Assembly: GCA_947478865.1 (NCBI GenBank)
Contig: CANJXF010000014.1
Location: 1-64,000, forward strand
DNA from: Verrucomicrobiales bacterium
Lineage (GTDB): Bacteria > Verrucomicrobiota > Verrucomicrobiia > Limisphaerales > CANJXF01
DNA: 64,000 nucleotides
Direction: 5' to 3'
Shown: positions 2,124-7,030 of the stretch, in pieces
How the letters are laid out: the number at the start of each line of letters is the position of its first letter
Position numbering within the stretch: the stretch's first letter is position 1
Notes under the pieces: generated by a model
Told to the model about the DNA's origin: nothing
Database searches by the model: none
Seen by the model: the letters and a program-made list of their open reading frames with translations, nothing else
Position numbers and translations under genes: made by a program

Positions 2124-3578
2124 TCAGTGTAGGGAAAAACCCGTTTTGGTATCAAAGAGCAAGACGTGCAGGTGGTTTTCCTGAAACGTAACCGTCTCGG
2201 TCCACCGTTGGGTAAACTGCGCGGAGTCGGCGGTGTCGGCCAGTTCCACCTGCACCATGTGATGGCCCGGCGTGACCGGCAGACGGACCACGGCCATGCT
2301 GGGGCCGTCGTGTGAGAGACCTTTGCTCTGGTAGGAAGCGTCGTGGACAGTCCGGCCATCGACCTGCACGCGCAGGCGGACAGGCACTCGCGCCCGTGTC
2401 ACGTTCACTTGGGCGCGCATGTCGAGCCCTGGCAGGTTAATCGCCTGCGAATCGCAGGCCCCCACACACACGCCGCAACCGACGCAGAGCGAAACGTCGA
2501 TTTGTGACTGCACTTCAAACTTCTTGCCGTCCTCGCGCGCCACCATTGAGATGGCGTTGAACGGACAGTCCTTCGCGCACAGCGTGCAGCCGAAGCAGCG
2601 TGCGAGATCGACGTCAGCCTTCCATTCCGGTGCGAGCCGGCGACGAGCCATCCACCACGGCGCGGTCAACGTCACGAGACCCGTGCCGAGGAACAAGGCC
2701 CACAGGGCGCCGCCACTCAATCGATCCGTGAGGCCGAGCGGCCAGAGATACCACCAGTCGAGCGTAAACCGTTGCACCTTCAAGGTCATCTGCGCCGGGC
2801 TGGAGCTGGTGGCCGGGAGCAGCGCTGCGACCACCACCAGCGAACCAATGATCCACAATGTCATGGCACGGCCCGTCAGCAGGCGCGCGCGGCTCACCCG
2901 CGTGAGATGCAGCCATAGCCCGATGCCAATCGAGAGAGGCAGGAGCATGTGGGCGAAAAAAATCAGGAAGAAGAGGAGCGACGGCACGCTGCCGTTCGTG
3001 AGGAACGAGCGAGACATCGGCTCCGCGAAGATGGGGAGCTGATCAATGAACCGCGCAGTGCCGAGCGCGGCGTGCTGGGCGCGTACGTCCCAGACCAGCC
3101 AGTAACCGGTCCAGCCGATGAACCACAGAGCCGCCAGCATGAGAATACCCGTGACCCACGCCAGCCAACGCGCCCCGGTAAAGCGCCGCTGGCAGACAAT
3201 GCGCGCGGCATGCAGCAGGATGAAAAAGATGCAACCATCTGAACTGTAGCGATGGAGCGAGCGCACGAGCTGCCCGAACCAAGCACCGGCGCGGAGTCTT
3301 TCCAGCGAATCGTAGGCCTGCGATACGCTCGGAGTGTACCAGACGAGTAGCGCGATACCCGACACCACGGCAGCGATAAGACAGGTATTGGCAATCGCAC
3401 CGAGCTGGCCAAAGGGATTCAGCGCGGACGGCAGGAACCGTTCCGCGAGCCGATCAAGATGGAGCCAGACATTCTCGAAGCGGCGCAGCAATGATTCGCC
3501 GTACACACTGGGCTTAAGAGGAATCGTCGCGGGATCGCTGCCAGTGGGTCGATCGAACGTTGGGGCATTTTCAGTCAT
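2124..3578 (-). CDS. cytochrome b / ferredoxin fusion, electron-input subunit of the NO-reductase-like operon
   Basis: The 484-residue membrane protein has an N-terminal cytochrome b domain with the classic paired histidines: H109/H123 in one helix and H210/H224 in another, each pair 14 apart, as in b-type haem ligation of bc-complex cytochrome b. After more membrane helices come two [4Fe-4S] motifs, CFGCTLCAKDCP (C328, C331, C334, C338) and CVGCGVCVGACD (C365, C368, C371, C375). A beta-rich tail of about 100 residues has no recognised fold. It could pass electrons from quinol or a soluble donor toward the CuA subunit. The gene starts 9 bases after the SCO gene. In nitrifier norSY-senC-orf1 clusters the last open frame occupies this place; I recall that arrangement from the literature and could not check similarity. 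Confidence 0.85.
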   Translation of the reverse strand: MTENAPTFDRPTGSDPATIPLKPSVYGESLLRRFENVWLHLDRLAERFLPSALNPFGQLGAIANTCLIAAVVSGIALLVWYTPSVSQAYDSLERLRAGAWFGQLVRSLHRYSSDGCIFFILLHAARIVCQRRFTGARWLAWVTGILMLAALWFIGWTGYWLVWDVRAQHAALGTARFIDQLPIFAEPMSRSFLTNGSVPSLLFFLIFFAHMLLPLSIGIGLWLHLTRVSRARLLTGRAMTLWIIGSLVVVAALLPATSSSPAQMTLKVQRFTLDWWYLWPLGLTDRLSGGALWALFLGTGLVTLTAPWWMARRRLAPEWKADVDLARCFGCTLCAKDCPFNAISMVAREDGKKFEVQSQIDVSLCVGCGVCVGACDSQAINLPGLDMRAQVNVTRARVPVRLRVQVDGRTVHDASYQSKGLSHDGPSMAVVRLPVTPGHHMVQVELADTADSAQFTQRWTETVTFQENHLHVLLFDTKTGFSLH

Positions 3579-3587
3579 GTGACTGAA

Positions 3588-4547
3588 TCACTTCGTTTTC
3601 TCCGCCAGCAACGTGCGCACGGCTGAGACGAGCCACGATTGCTCGCGCTGGCTCAGCGACAGCCGGTAGGCGATGCGCCCCTCATGGTCGAGAAGGATGA
3701 ACAGGTTTGAGTGGACGAGCTCGCCGGTCTTTTCGTCGCGCATGCGTCCGATGTTCAGTTTTTCAAGCAAAACGTTCATCTCGGATGGCAGACCATTGAC
3801 GAAGTGGAATTGCGCGGTGTGAAAGCCATAGGACTTCGTGATCATGGTACGCAATTCGCGGGTATCGACCTCCGGGCTGAGCGAGAAGGCCACCACCGCG
3901 AGTTCGGCGCGCTCGGCGGGCGTGAGTTGATCGAGCACTTCACGGATCTTCTTCAGCATCATGGGGCAAGTCGTCGTGCAGGTAGAATAGACCGCGGTGA
4001 CAAGCGTTACGCGCCCCTTGAAGTCGGCAAGCGTGACGGGCTGGCCGTCCTGGTTGGTAAAATTGAATGCCGGCATCGGCAGTGCGCTGCGCAGGCGGTC
4101 AGCGGGAAATGGGAACTCTCGCTGCACCGGTTCCGCGCGCCCCAGGCCTGCAAGACCTGCGCCGAGAATTCCAACCAGCAGCAACGCCGCCGAGGCAATC
4201 GGAATCACGGCCCGGCGACGGATTTGCCATAGTTCGCGAATCTGCGCGCGCCAGATGAAGAAGACGATGCCCAAAAGGGGCACCGGTTCAGCCACCATCA
4301 CCGCGACGGAACTCCATTTCATCCAGCCGGTCTTGGGTTGGTATTGAAAACAGCGGATGCGGAACTCTTCGAGAAATCCTCCCAGAGCGCCGCCGTTGAT
4401 GGGGGCAAAGGTCATGATGATTACGAAGGCCTCGTAAAAACAGAGCACGAAGAGGACGAACATCGCGAAGCCCCCGCCCGACAACATGCGGCTGAAGCGC
4501 AGCACTAGGCGTTCGAGCGGACTGGGGGTGAGCGTTTGCGTCGTCAT
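3588..4547 (-). CDS. senC: SCO1/SenC-family copper chaperone with N-terminal membrane helices
   Basis: The 319-residue protein has three hydrophobic helices (about 25-48, 80-100, 113-136), then a thioredoxin-fold SCO domain. The copper-binding residues are visible: C190 and C194 in STCTTTCPM and H279 in LVHSNLF. SCO proteins load copper into the CuA site of oxidase subunit II, and the CuA gene is two genes upstream in the same operon. The extra membrane helices are unusual, since most SCO proteins have a single anchor. It is 32 bases downstream of the subunit I gene and 9 bases upstream of the cytochrome b gene, so it is almost certainly co-transcribed. Confidence 0.9.
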   Translation of the reverse strand: MTTQTLTPSPLERLVLRFSRMLSGGGFAMFVLFVLCFYEAFVIIMTFAPINGGALGGFLEEFRIRCFQYQPKTGWMKWSSVAVMVAEPVPLLGIVFFIWRAQIRELWQIRRRAVIPIASAALLLVGILGAGLAGLGRAEPVQREFPFPADRLRSALPMPAFNFTNQDGQPVTLADFKGRVTLVTAVYSTCTTTCPMMLKKIREVLDQLTPAERAELAVVAFSLSPEVDTRELRTMITKSYGFHTAQFHFVNGLPSEMNVLLEKLNIGRMRDEKTGELVHSNLFILLDHEGRIAYRLSLSQREQSWLVSAVRTLLAEKTK

Positions 4548-4579
4548 GGGTTATTTGGGTCGCTGATGGTCATGGTAAT

Positions 4580-6298
4580 TCATCGCACCGGCCATACGTC
4601 CGCAAGCGCTTTCCAGTTCGCGAAGTAGTAGACCGCGAAGCTGATCAGGAAGACGATGGCGAGAACCATCGTGCCCTGGGTGGGATGAACTGTGGCCACC
4701 ACTCCTGCGCCCGCCTGAATTGGAGCCGGGTGATCATGCCCAGCCGAGGTACTGAGCACTTTGGGCGTGCCCCAGTCCTCCATGGCCCGGCCAACAATGC
4801 GACGGCCAAACAATAATGTGCCGACGGTCAGGCCGACGTAGAGGAACAAGGCCAGGAACGCCAGGATGCCGCCGATGCCAACAAGCCCCAGGAACAAGTG
4901 GGCCGTCGGTCCGTAGATGGAACCCGCGGCTTCGATGTCCCAACTGCGCCGTGCCACCCCCATCGAGCCAGCGAACGACATGCCGACGGACAGCGTCACG
5001 ATCCCGATGCCGAAGAGATACGGCTGCAAGCGCGCGAGCGGTTTGAAGATATACTCGCGCTGCCACAGCAGCGGCACCAGGTAATAGGTCAACCCCATGA
5101 AGGCCAGCGTCGTGCCGCCCACGACCGTCACGTGGAAGTGACCGGGAATGCGGAGCGTGTTGTGGGCGATGATGTTGATCTGTTGCGTGCCCAGCGTCAC
5201 GCCGGTGATGCCGCCGAGGAAGCCGAATATGATCAGCGAAAGGAAGAACGCGGAGAAGCCAGGATTGCGCCAGGGCGCACCCGTCAACCAGCCAAACAGG
5301 CCGCGGATATAGCCCTTGTGGCGCATGGCGACCTCTACCGAAGCCGGCACGGTGAAACCATGCATCATCGAAGCGAGCACTGCGAGATACATGGCGTAGG
5401 AGGTGTTCCAGATTTTCCAGCCCGCACCGACGCCAGGATCGACGAGTAAATGATGCGCGGAGGCCAGATTGATGAACAGGATGTAGAGCACGAACGCGCT
5501 GCGGCAGACGGCTTCGTTGAGCGGTTTCGCGCCGGTAGTCACGGTGGCGAGGAAATACCACACCGCCACCATCGCACAAACGTTTACCTGCTGGGACATG
5601 TGACCGAGGCCCCACCAGATAAGGCGATACCATTGCGGGTCGGGCTGCGCGATCAGGCCGACGGAATGAAGAAACGTCGGCACCATCACGACCGCGCCGT
5701 GCAACAGCGTGACCACCGCGATGATGGCCGCCGCCGTCGCACCGAACACCACCAGCGGAACGGAGCCTTCGTAGGTTTTCTCCTTCTTGGCCTTGTAGAG
5801 CGTGGCGAAAAAGTTAATGACCCCGATCAACGTGCCCACGGCGACCAGAATGATGCCGAGGTAGAACGCCGGATGCGCCAGCAGCGGCAAGTAGGAGCTC
5901 AACATTACGTCGGCTTTGCCCACCAGGATCGTGACATCCACCATCACCGCTCCAGTCAGCATCATGCTCAGGGAGACCCAGGCGATGGCACGCGAAGCCA
6001 GGCGCACGTTCAGCAATGTGGTGACGACGAAGTAGAGGATGGCCACCTCAAAGAACAGGATCCAGAAGAGGAGCATGTTGATCCCGTGCAGGGTGATGAT
6101 GCGGTAGAACCAATCCACGGGCAGCAGATGAACCGTCTGCCAGCGGGTCAGCGCGAGCAGGATCGCAGCAATGCCGCCAATGAGGAGGAACACGACGGCG
6201 AGCACGGCATTGGCCTTGACGAAGAATTCCGCCTGGCGGCAGATCGTAAGGCCGGTAGTCAGGCAGATGCGTTTAGCGGAGTCTGATTTGGCATTCAT
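4580..6298 (-). CDS. norS: haem-copper oxidase subunit I, probably an sNOR-type nitric oxide reductase
   Basis: The 572-residue protein has about 13-14 membrane helices and all six metal-binding histidines of the superfamily: H71 (low-spin haem), H233 and H282/H283 (CuB), H387 (active-site haem) and H389 (low-spin haem) in PGHFHV. At four residues after H233, where oxygen reductases carry the Tyr cross-linked to the CuB His (HPEVY), this protein has Gln (GHMSQQV). Loss of this Tyr is a feature of NO reductases related to B-family oxidases. The neighbours (CuA subunit, SenC, cytochrome b) match the norSY-senC order known from ammonia oxidisers. The reaction would be 2 NO to N2O at the membrane. 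A cbb3-like enzyme, whose Tyr sits on another helix, is the alternative, but the CuA partner argues against it. Confidence 0.75.
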   Translation of the reverse strand: MNAKSDSAKRICLTTGLTICRQAEFFVKANAVLAVVFLLIGGIAAILLALTRWQTVHLLPVDWFYRIITLHGINMLLFWILFFEVAILYFVVTTLLNVRLASRAIAWVSLSMMLTGAVMVDVTILVGKADVMLSSYLPLLAHPAFYLGIILVAVGTLIGVINFFATLYKAKKEKTYEGSVPLVVFGATAAAIIAVVTLLHGAVVMVPTFLHSVGLIAQPDPQWYRLIWWGLGHMSQQVNVCAMVAVWYFLATVTTGAKPLNEAVCRSAFVLYILFINLASAHHLLVDPGVGAGWKIWNTSYAMYLAVLASMMHGFTVPASVEVAMRHKGYIRGLFGWLTGAPWRNPGFSAFFLSLIIFGFLGGITGVTLGTQQINIIAHNTLRIPGHFHVTVVGGTTLAFMGLTYYLVPLLWQREYIFKPLARLQPYLFGIGIVTLSVGMSFAGSMGVARRSWDIEAAGSIYGPTAHLFLGLVGIGGILAFLALFLYVGLTVGTLLFGRRIVGRAMEDWGTPKVLSTSAGHDHPAPIQAGAGVVATVHPTQGTMVLAIVFLISFAVYYFANWKALADVWPVR

Positions 6299-6310
6299 GG
6301 GCTGGGTTTT

Positions 6311-6871
6311 CTATTCAACGATGATTTTTCCGACCATGTTCTGATGGCCGATGCCGCAGAACTCATTGCAGACAATGTGATAGGTGCCGGGCGCTTGAGG
6401 CGTGATCGTGAGCACGTGGTCATAGCCGGGGACAATCTGGAAGTTCATGTTCATGGGCAGGAGTGAGAAACCGTGCTGAAAATCGGCCGACGAAATGTGC
6501 AGCCGATACGTTTCACCGGCGCGCAGCTTGAGAATGGGGAACCAGGCAAATTGCTTCGCCAGGAGATAGATCTCGCCGGGAGGCGCGGGCACCACCGGAG
6601 CTATGCCCTCCTCGACCAACGATTCCACGCCAGTGTTGGCCAGCACGAATTTCTCGACGCGTTTGATGAAGTCAGCGGGTTTGACCTTGTAAGCCTCACC
6701 GGTGCTGTTCTGTTTTCCACGGAAATGCCAGTAGGGCATCATCACCGAGAGGATCAGGCACCAGACCACAGCCATGCCGATCCAGGTGCGCTCATTGCCG
6801 CTCGGCGCCTGGAACCATCCGGGCGCGGGGCATTGTAGGCTGGAAGAAGATTCCTCGCTCATAATTTTCAT
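6311..6871 (-). CDS. norY: cupredoxin subunit II with an intact CuA site (NorY-like)
   Basis: The 186-residue protein has one N-terminal membrane helix (about 30-47) and a periplasmic cupredoxin domain. The CuA ligands are all present: H133 in QHGFS, then C168, E170, C172, H176 and M179 in CNEFCGIGHQNM. It would accept electrons and pass them to subunit I. It is 12 bases upstream of the subunit I gene and 9 bases downstream of the small membrane protein gene. A second ATG three codons in (6862) is also possible. Canonical cNOR and qNOR lack CuA; a CuA-bearing subunit is what sNOR- and ba3-like enzymes have. Confidence 0.85.
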   Translation of the reverse strand: MKIMSEESSSSLQCPAPGWFQAPSGNERTWIGMAVVWCLILSVMMPYWHFRGKQNSTGEAYKVKPADFIKRVEKFVLANTGVESLVEEGIAPVVPAPPGEIYLLAKQFAWFPILKLRAGETYRLHISSADFQHGFSLLPMNMNFQIVPGYDHVLTITPQAPGTYHIVCNEFCGIGHQNMVGKIIVE

Positions 6872-6880
6872 CGGGGTGGA

Positions 6881-7030
6881 TCAGGGCAGTTGAGCCGTCT
6901 TGAGAAAGATCAGCTCCAACCAACCCCACAGTGTGTAAGACAGAGACGGGATGGCCACGCCAAGCACCAGCAACAGCCACGGGTTGTCCATCAGTTTTTG
7001 TATCGGATGTTTGCGATCAGGTTCGTTCAT
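6881..7030 (-). CDS. 49-residue single-helix membrane protein heading the NO-reductase-like operon
   Basis: An ATG at 7030 starts a 49-codon frame ending with TGA at 6881-6883, nine bases before the cupredoxin gene. The product begins with a charged head (MNEPDRKHPIQKLMD), followed by one hydrophobic helix of about 25 residues (NPWLLLVLGVAIPSLSYTLW...), and ends in TAQLP. Its place as first gene of the operon and its clean membrane topology make it likely to be a real small subunit, comparable in position to the tiny IIa-type subunits of ba3 oxidases. Function is inferred from context only. Confidence 0.65.
   Translation of the reverse strand: MNEPDRKHPIQKLMDNPWLLLVLGVAIPSLSYTLWGWLELIFLKTAQLP

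Follow-up and report, generated by a model that had tools for sequence, protein, structure and literature searches.

A probable eNOR-type nitric oxide reductase operon with a cytochrome b/ferredoxin partner in an uncultured verrucomicrobial lineage

The stretch of DNA analysed here (the window) covers the first 64,000 nucleotides of contig CANJXF010000014.1, from a Verrucomicrobiales draft genome of 4.4 Mb in 114 contigs. Positions 2124-7030 hold five leftward genes, all on the minus strand, with intergenic gaps of about 9-32 bp, which bears out the tight five-gene operon of the original prediction. The first gene of the operon (6881-7030) is a 49-aa single-helix ORF that has no Pfam match and is probably a small subunit. 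It is followed by genes for subunit II, 186 aa with one N-terminal TM helix and a cupredoxin domain carrying the CuA ligands (6311-6871; Pfam COX2, E value 4e-6, and NCBIfam CoxB); subunit I, 572 aa (4580-6298; COX1, 8e-63); a SCO/SenC copper chaperone, 319 aa with a three-helix N-terminal membrane part (3588-4547; SCO1-SenC, 9e-20); and a 484-aa protein in which Pfam matches (Cytochrome_B, 2e-20, with Fer4 also matched) and homolog alignment identify a cytochrome b, a dicluster ferredoxin and a beta domain (2124-3578).

The metal ligands that had been listed for these proteins were all found. Subunit II has the CuA ligands in CNEFCGIGHQNM plus an upstream His, and the SCO protein has the redox motif CTTTC and a downstream His (both read directly or by alignment); subunit I has six haem/CuB His (His71, 233, 282, 283, 387 and 389, from sequence and alignment), and the cytochrome b protein has four haem b His (His109, 123, 210 and 224) and eight Fe-S Cys. 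In a comparison with a near relative (L040), dN/dS was 0.06-0.16 across all five genes, with subunit II at 0.06, and this purifying selection argues that the operon is not a chance arrangement. The loci nearest to it are from Verrucomicrobia subdivision 3, with 87% identity in subunit I, which supports the verrucomicrobial origin proposed from the sequence. Just 3′ of the operon, also on the minus strand, lies a gene for a 430-aa protein with one CxxCH motif (660-1952), which matched nothing in Pfam or NCBIfam and of which no homolog turned up in related eNOR loci.

The residue at the position of the oxidase Tyr in subunit I is Gln237 (codon 5588-5590), as first read, within a GHMSQQ motif (residues 232-237; 5588-5605, minus strand; sequence and alignment), and the cross-linked Tyr of HPxxY is not there. 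Relatives in a sample of the phylum with 57-75% identity to subunit I all have Gln at this position, the next matches, at about 30% identity, all have Tyr, and none fell in between. A motif-guided scan returned at least 509 relatives, from which 80 loci representing many phyla were kept; Gln conservation in these 80 loci is partly circular because the Gln motif was one of the two scan patterns, a circularity from which the unguided searches are free. According to Table A4 of PMC8756737 (after Hemp and Gennis 2008), the Tyr position holds Gln in eNOR and Asn in sNOR, and the same paper uses Gln as the defining feature of eNOR; we therefore filed the window enzyme as an eNOR. The eNOR family is predicted to have one proton channel; in an alignment of nine eNORs, Y248 and S310 are kept, and the other K-channel positions are unlike those of ba3 oxidases. 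Murali et al. 2024 (PNAS) reportedly define the family set and characterise an eNOR.

A subunit I tree of 73 rows, which included no sNOR, bNOR, gNOR or nNOR sequence, placed the window protein with the Gln types rather than inside an oxygen-reductase clade. The 35 Gln types (the window and 34 others) form one group with an SH-aLRT of 93, below the starred level, and the 24 Tyr-type B-family oxidases form a separate group (SH-aLRT 99). The window subunit I is nested with the Verrucomicrobia subdivision 3 loci (SH-aLRT 99). A third group (SH-aLRT 100) consists of subunit I paralogs of ∼490 aa that keep the haem His and are missing the CuB His pair; its joining to the Gln types is uncertain because of long branches. 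Of 62 testable loci, 39 carry a gene for such a paralog directly upstream of eNOR (for example L053:6773-8245, L057:6779-8281 and L155:4477-6213), and none was found anywhere in the window genome.

Taken together, these results suggest that the window operon very probably encodes an eNOR-family NO reductase, with reduction of NO to the greenhouse gas N2O as its likeliest reaction. The eNOR is a known enzyme family that has already been reported in the Verrucomicrobia phylum. Its members (Hemp and Gennis 2008; PMC8756737; PMC13274419) resemble the window system in the active-site Gln, the CuB and haem ligands, the CuA subunit II, a B-family-related subunit I and the presence of NirK in the genome. 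No essential difference was seen between the window operon and other eNOR operons; what differs is its shortened cytochrome b gene and the absence of the CuB-less paralog that is common in relatives. A homolog of the 49-aa ORF is directly upstream of subunit II in all 73 testable eNOR loci, the SCO gene is downstream in 65 of 70, and eNOR operons from many phyla generally share the order subunit II, subunit I, SCO.

Several variations were seen among the other eNOR loci. Two Thermus plasmid eNORs (L026:7986-9668 and L027:8016-9695) have Lys at the expected low-spin haem ligand His389. In eleven loci (L062, L067, L075, L076, L077, L081, L082, L085, L086, L087 and L091), mostly from Myxococcota, Planctomycetota and Nitrospirota, subunit I is split, with its last TM helix on a separate reading frame or small downstream ORF. 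Three Planctomycetota eNOR operons have one in-frame TGA in the SCO gene (L089:2979-3947, L090:10708-11661 and L094:1434-2402), falling exactly on the second Cys of the CxxxC-P redox motif, which suggests that these encode selenocysteine SCO proteins. A SelB match over the cut-off was found in all three of these genomes and in neither of two genomes with a Cys-type SCO (L040 and L081); hairpins 3′ of the TGA were only partly convincing.

The cytochrome b gene at the end of the window operon is shorter than its homologs. Its cytochrome b part (residues about 39-316; 2631-3464), delimited by conservation and by the fold match of the homolog from locus L041, contains the four haem b His and a Qo-like DWWY sequence (Asp274). 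The 2x[4Fe-4S] ferredoxin part (2433-2621), located by Fer4 matches and Cys mapping, has the eight Cys, and the C-terminal beta domain (2127-2423), recognised by alignment and predicted strands, is preceded by a TM helix in homologs. At the junction between the last two parts (2420-2424), relatives carry about 645 bp more, corresponding to an FlpD/MvhD domain and the TM helix, and matches across the junction are split into 2415-3518 and 2130-2423. In the alignment with G430, the missing 645 bp are exactly in frame (about 215 codons); the FlpD cysteines and the last helix are gone, and all haem and ferredoxin ligands are kept.

This gap is due to a recent deletion or to misassembly. Misassembly is quite possible, in which case the organism has a full protein of ∼700 aa: the other 12 matches in the order are all longer than the window copy, the source is a draft in many contigs, and purifying selection still acts on the C-terminal part. 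Against this, the junction is exactly in frame, a short shared ACA at the junction fits a natural deletion, and neither the missing segment nor a full-length partner was found elsewhere in the assembly. Since the FlpD domain and the last helix are both missing, the FlpD branch has been altered or lost unless the gap is an assembly error; a real gap would leave the beta domain on the cytoplasmic side of the membrane and abolish the FlpD branch.

The fusion of cytochrome b to ferredoxin, which had been proposed as an unusual route of electron entry, turned out to be a conserved eNOR partner that is not peculiar to the window genome, apart from the shortening of the window copy. Among 388 genomes from the phylum, the partner was found in nine, which are exactly those with eNOR, and FlpD and the last TM helix are missing only from the window copy. 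Of 68 testable loci from many phyla, 66 have a homolog of the partner gene next to eNOR: 48 encode a fused protein of about 700 aa, 10 have a short or split gene on the same strand, and in 8 the gene is divergent. In most loci it adjoins the SCO gene. No cytochrome b gene was seen near the eNOR genes of Thermus and Thermomicrobium members, so the partner is not needed by every eNOR.

Intact homologs of ∼700 aa consist of a bc1-type cytochrome b, a dicluster ferredoxin, an MvhD/FlpD domain, one TM helix and the beta domain. An earlier single-sequence fold of the L041 partner protein was useless (pLDDT 47); the model used here (pLDDT 90, pTM 0.88) matched bc1 cytochrome b with a Z of about 23 over 255 residues in a fold search, which, run with the whole protein, was dominated by the cytochrome b part and barely probed the beta domain. 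The four haem His and the Asp of DWWY are invariant in 60 homologs, and we read DWWY as a probable equivalent of the PEWY quinol-site motif. Residues 40-316 resemble the cytochrome b of bc1 and b6f complexes in fold, in the four haem b His and in this PEWY-like motif, but the operon differs from those systems in that there is no Rieske protein or cytochrome c1/f among its five genes and in that the cytochrome b is fused to a ferredoxin and, in homologs, also to FlpD. The homologs' domains also match solved MvhD chains and the ferredoxin part of HdrA chains of the methanogen heterodisulfide reductase complex; the difference is that in the partner these domains are joined to a membrane cytochrome b, and that FlpD is absent from the window copy. 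The topology of bc1, taken as a guide, would put the ferredoxin and FlpD domains of intact homologs in the cytoplasm and the beta domain in the periplasm.

CcoG, which has been discussed as a cupric reductase, has a layout like that of the partner protein. This raises the alternative that the partner serves in assembly rather than as an electron donor, acting as a CcoG-like transmembrane reductase that maintains copper in the Cu(I) state for SCO, CuA and CuB. We consider this possible but unlikely: the succession of a membrane redox domain, a cytoplasmic 2x[4Fe-4S] domain, a TM helix and a periplasmic beta domain, with the assumed topology, resembles CcoG/FixG of cbb3 oxidase assembly, and the partner gene adjoins SCO in most loci, but neither a full homolog nor a split C-terminal ORF gave a Pfam match to FixG_C or a CcoG-type domain up to an E value of 0.1, and the membrane redox domain is a different one, a bc1-type cytochrome b with a quinol-site motif. 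Because of this bc1 fold and motif, we favor quinol-linked electron transfer, and the likeliest role of the intact partner would be electron exchange among the quinol pool, eNOR and/or a cytoplasmic partner. Electron entry to eNOR through the cytochrome b/ferredoxin protein, in that direction of flow, is possible. A more elaborate proposal is that the partner, in many phyla, oxidises quinol and splits the electrons between the CuA of eNOR and a low-potential cytoplasmic acceptor reached through haem b and the ferredoxin/FlpD module, and that the window organism lost this low-potential branch by the FlpD deletion. If true, NO reduction would drive uphill electron transfer, but such bifurcation goes beyond the evidence and we regard the proposal as very improbable.

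The genome context bears on the reaction of the enzyme itself. A NirK scored over the NCBIfam cut-off in the window genome, where it has a C-terminal cytochrome c domain, and no NosZ match over the cut-off was found there. In the two closest relatives (L040 and L041) a NirK-FGE-SCO-CRP module adjoins eNOR, and the window genome has the same module, in the same order, on another contig. A bc complex and alternative complex III, read from gene sequences and order, are also present, and the genome encodes oxidases of caa3 and cbb3 type. Verruconatronum alginivorum, a verrucomicrobium in culture that has both NirK and eNOR, is reported to grow by nitrite reduction to N2O (PMC13274419, 2026). The NirK, the lack of a NosZ match, the modules of the relatives and this cultured organism together point to NO reduction to N2O as the likeliest reaction. 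Electrons would pass from a periplasmic cytochrome c, served by the bc complex or alternative complex III, to CuA, and from there through the low-spin haem to the haem/CuB site, where NO from the genome's NirK would be reduced to N2O; because NosZ was not found in the genome, the N2O would be released.

A high-affinity B-family oxygen reductase that has lost its Tyr is a very unlikely alternative to this NO reductase. The solved structures nearest to subunit I are ba3 oxidases, which share its fold and metal ligands at about 30% identity, and an oxygen-reducing role has been argued for sNOR (PMC6967387). The same paper discusses, for sNOR, that B-type haem-copper enzymes can reduce NO as well as O2, which also counts against too firm an eNOR reading. 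However, the oxygen reductase was rejected on the missing Tyr at position 237 and on the tree, where the window protein stands apart from every Tyr-type B oxidase. The NirK in the genome, often adjacent to eNOR in relatives, likewise speaks against it, as do the report of eNOR as the NO reductase of the nitrite-respiring verrucomicrobium (PMC13274419) and the caa3-type and cbb3-type oxidases that the genome already has.

The original prediction had favored sNOR over cNOR or an oxygen reductase, and was right that this is a CuA-containing enzyme of NO-reductase type, neither a Tyr-type oxidase nor a cNOR, but the family indicated by Gln is eNOR. A cNOR or qNOR does not fit, as subunit II is COX2-like rather than NorC-type and the active-site position is Gln rather than Glu. 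That the enzyme is an sNOR (NorSY with SenC and orf1) is scarcely tenable: the sNOR of ammonia oxidisers likewise has a CuA subunit, a B-type subunit I (PMC6967387) and SenC in the operon, but it has Asn at the Tyr position, and the shared order of CuA subunit II, subunit I and SenC, which had been taken as norY-norS-senC-orf1-like, is general in Gln-type operons and therefore lends sNOR no support. The rejection is made on the active-site residue (Gln237 versus Asn) rather than on the tree. Of the proteins read in a search for sNOR references in Gammaproteobacteria, all were of Tyr or Gln type, and a further order-level search gave no obvious candidate, its new loci being left untyped.

In summary, the probable sNOR label of this locus is corrected to eNOR, and a putative N2O-producing gene set (NirK and eNOR, with NosZ not found) is added for an uncultured verrucomicrobial lineage. 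More broadly, eNOR is strictly paired within the phylum with a cytochrome b/ferredoxin/FlpD protein, and often with a CuB-less paralog of its own catalytic subunit as well. The partner and the paralog are the parts worth following, and their pairing with eNOR turns the source of its electrons or its copper into a testable question.
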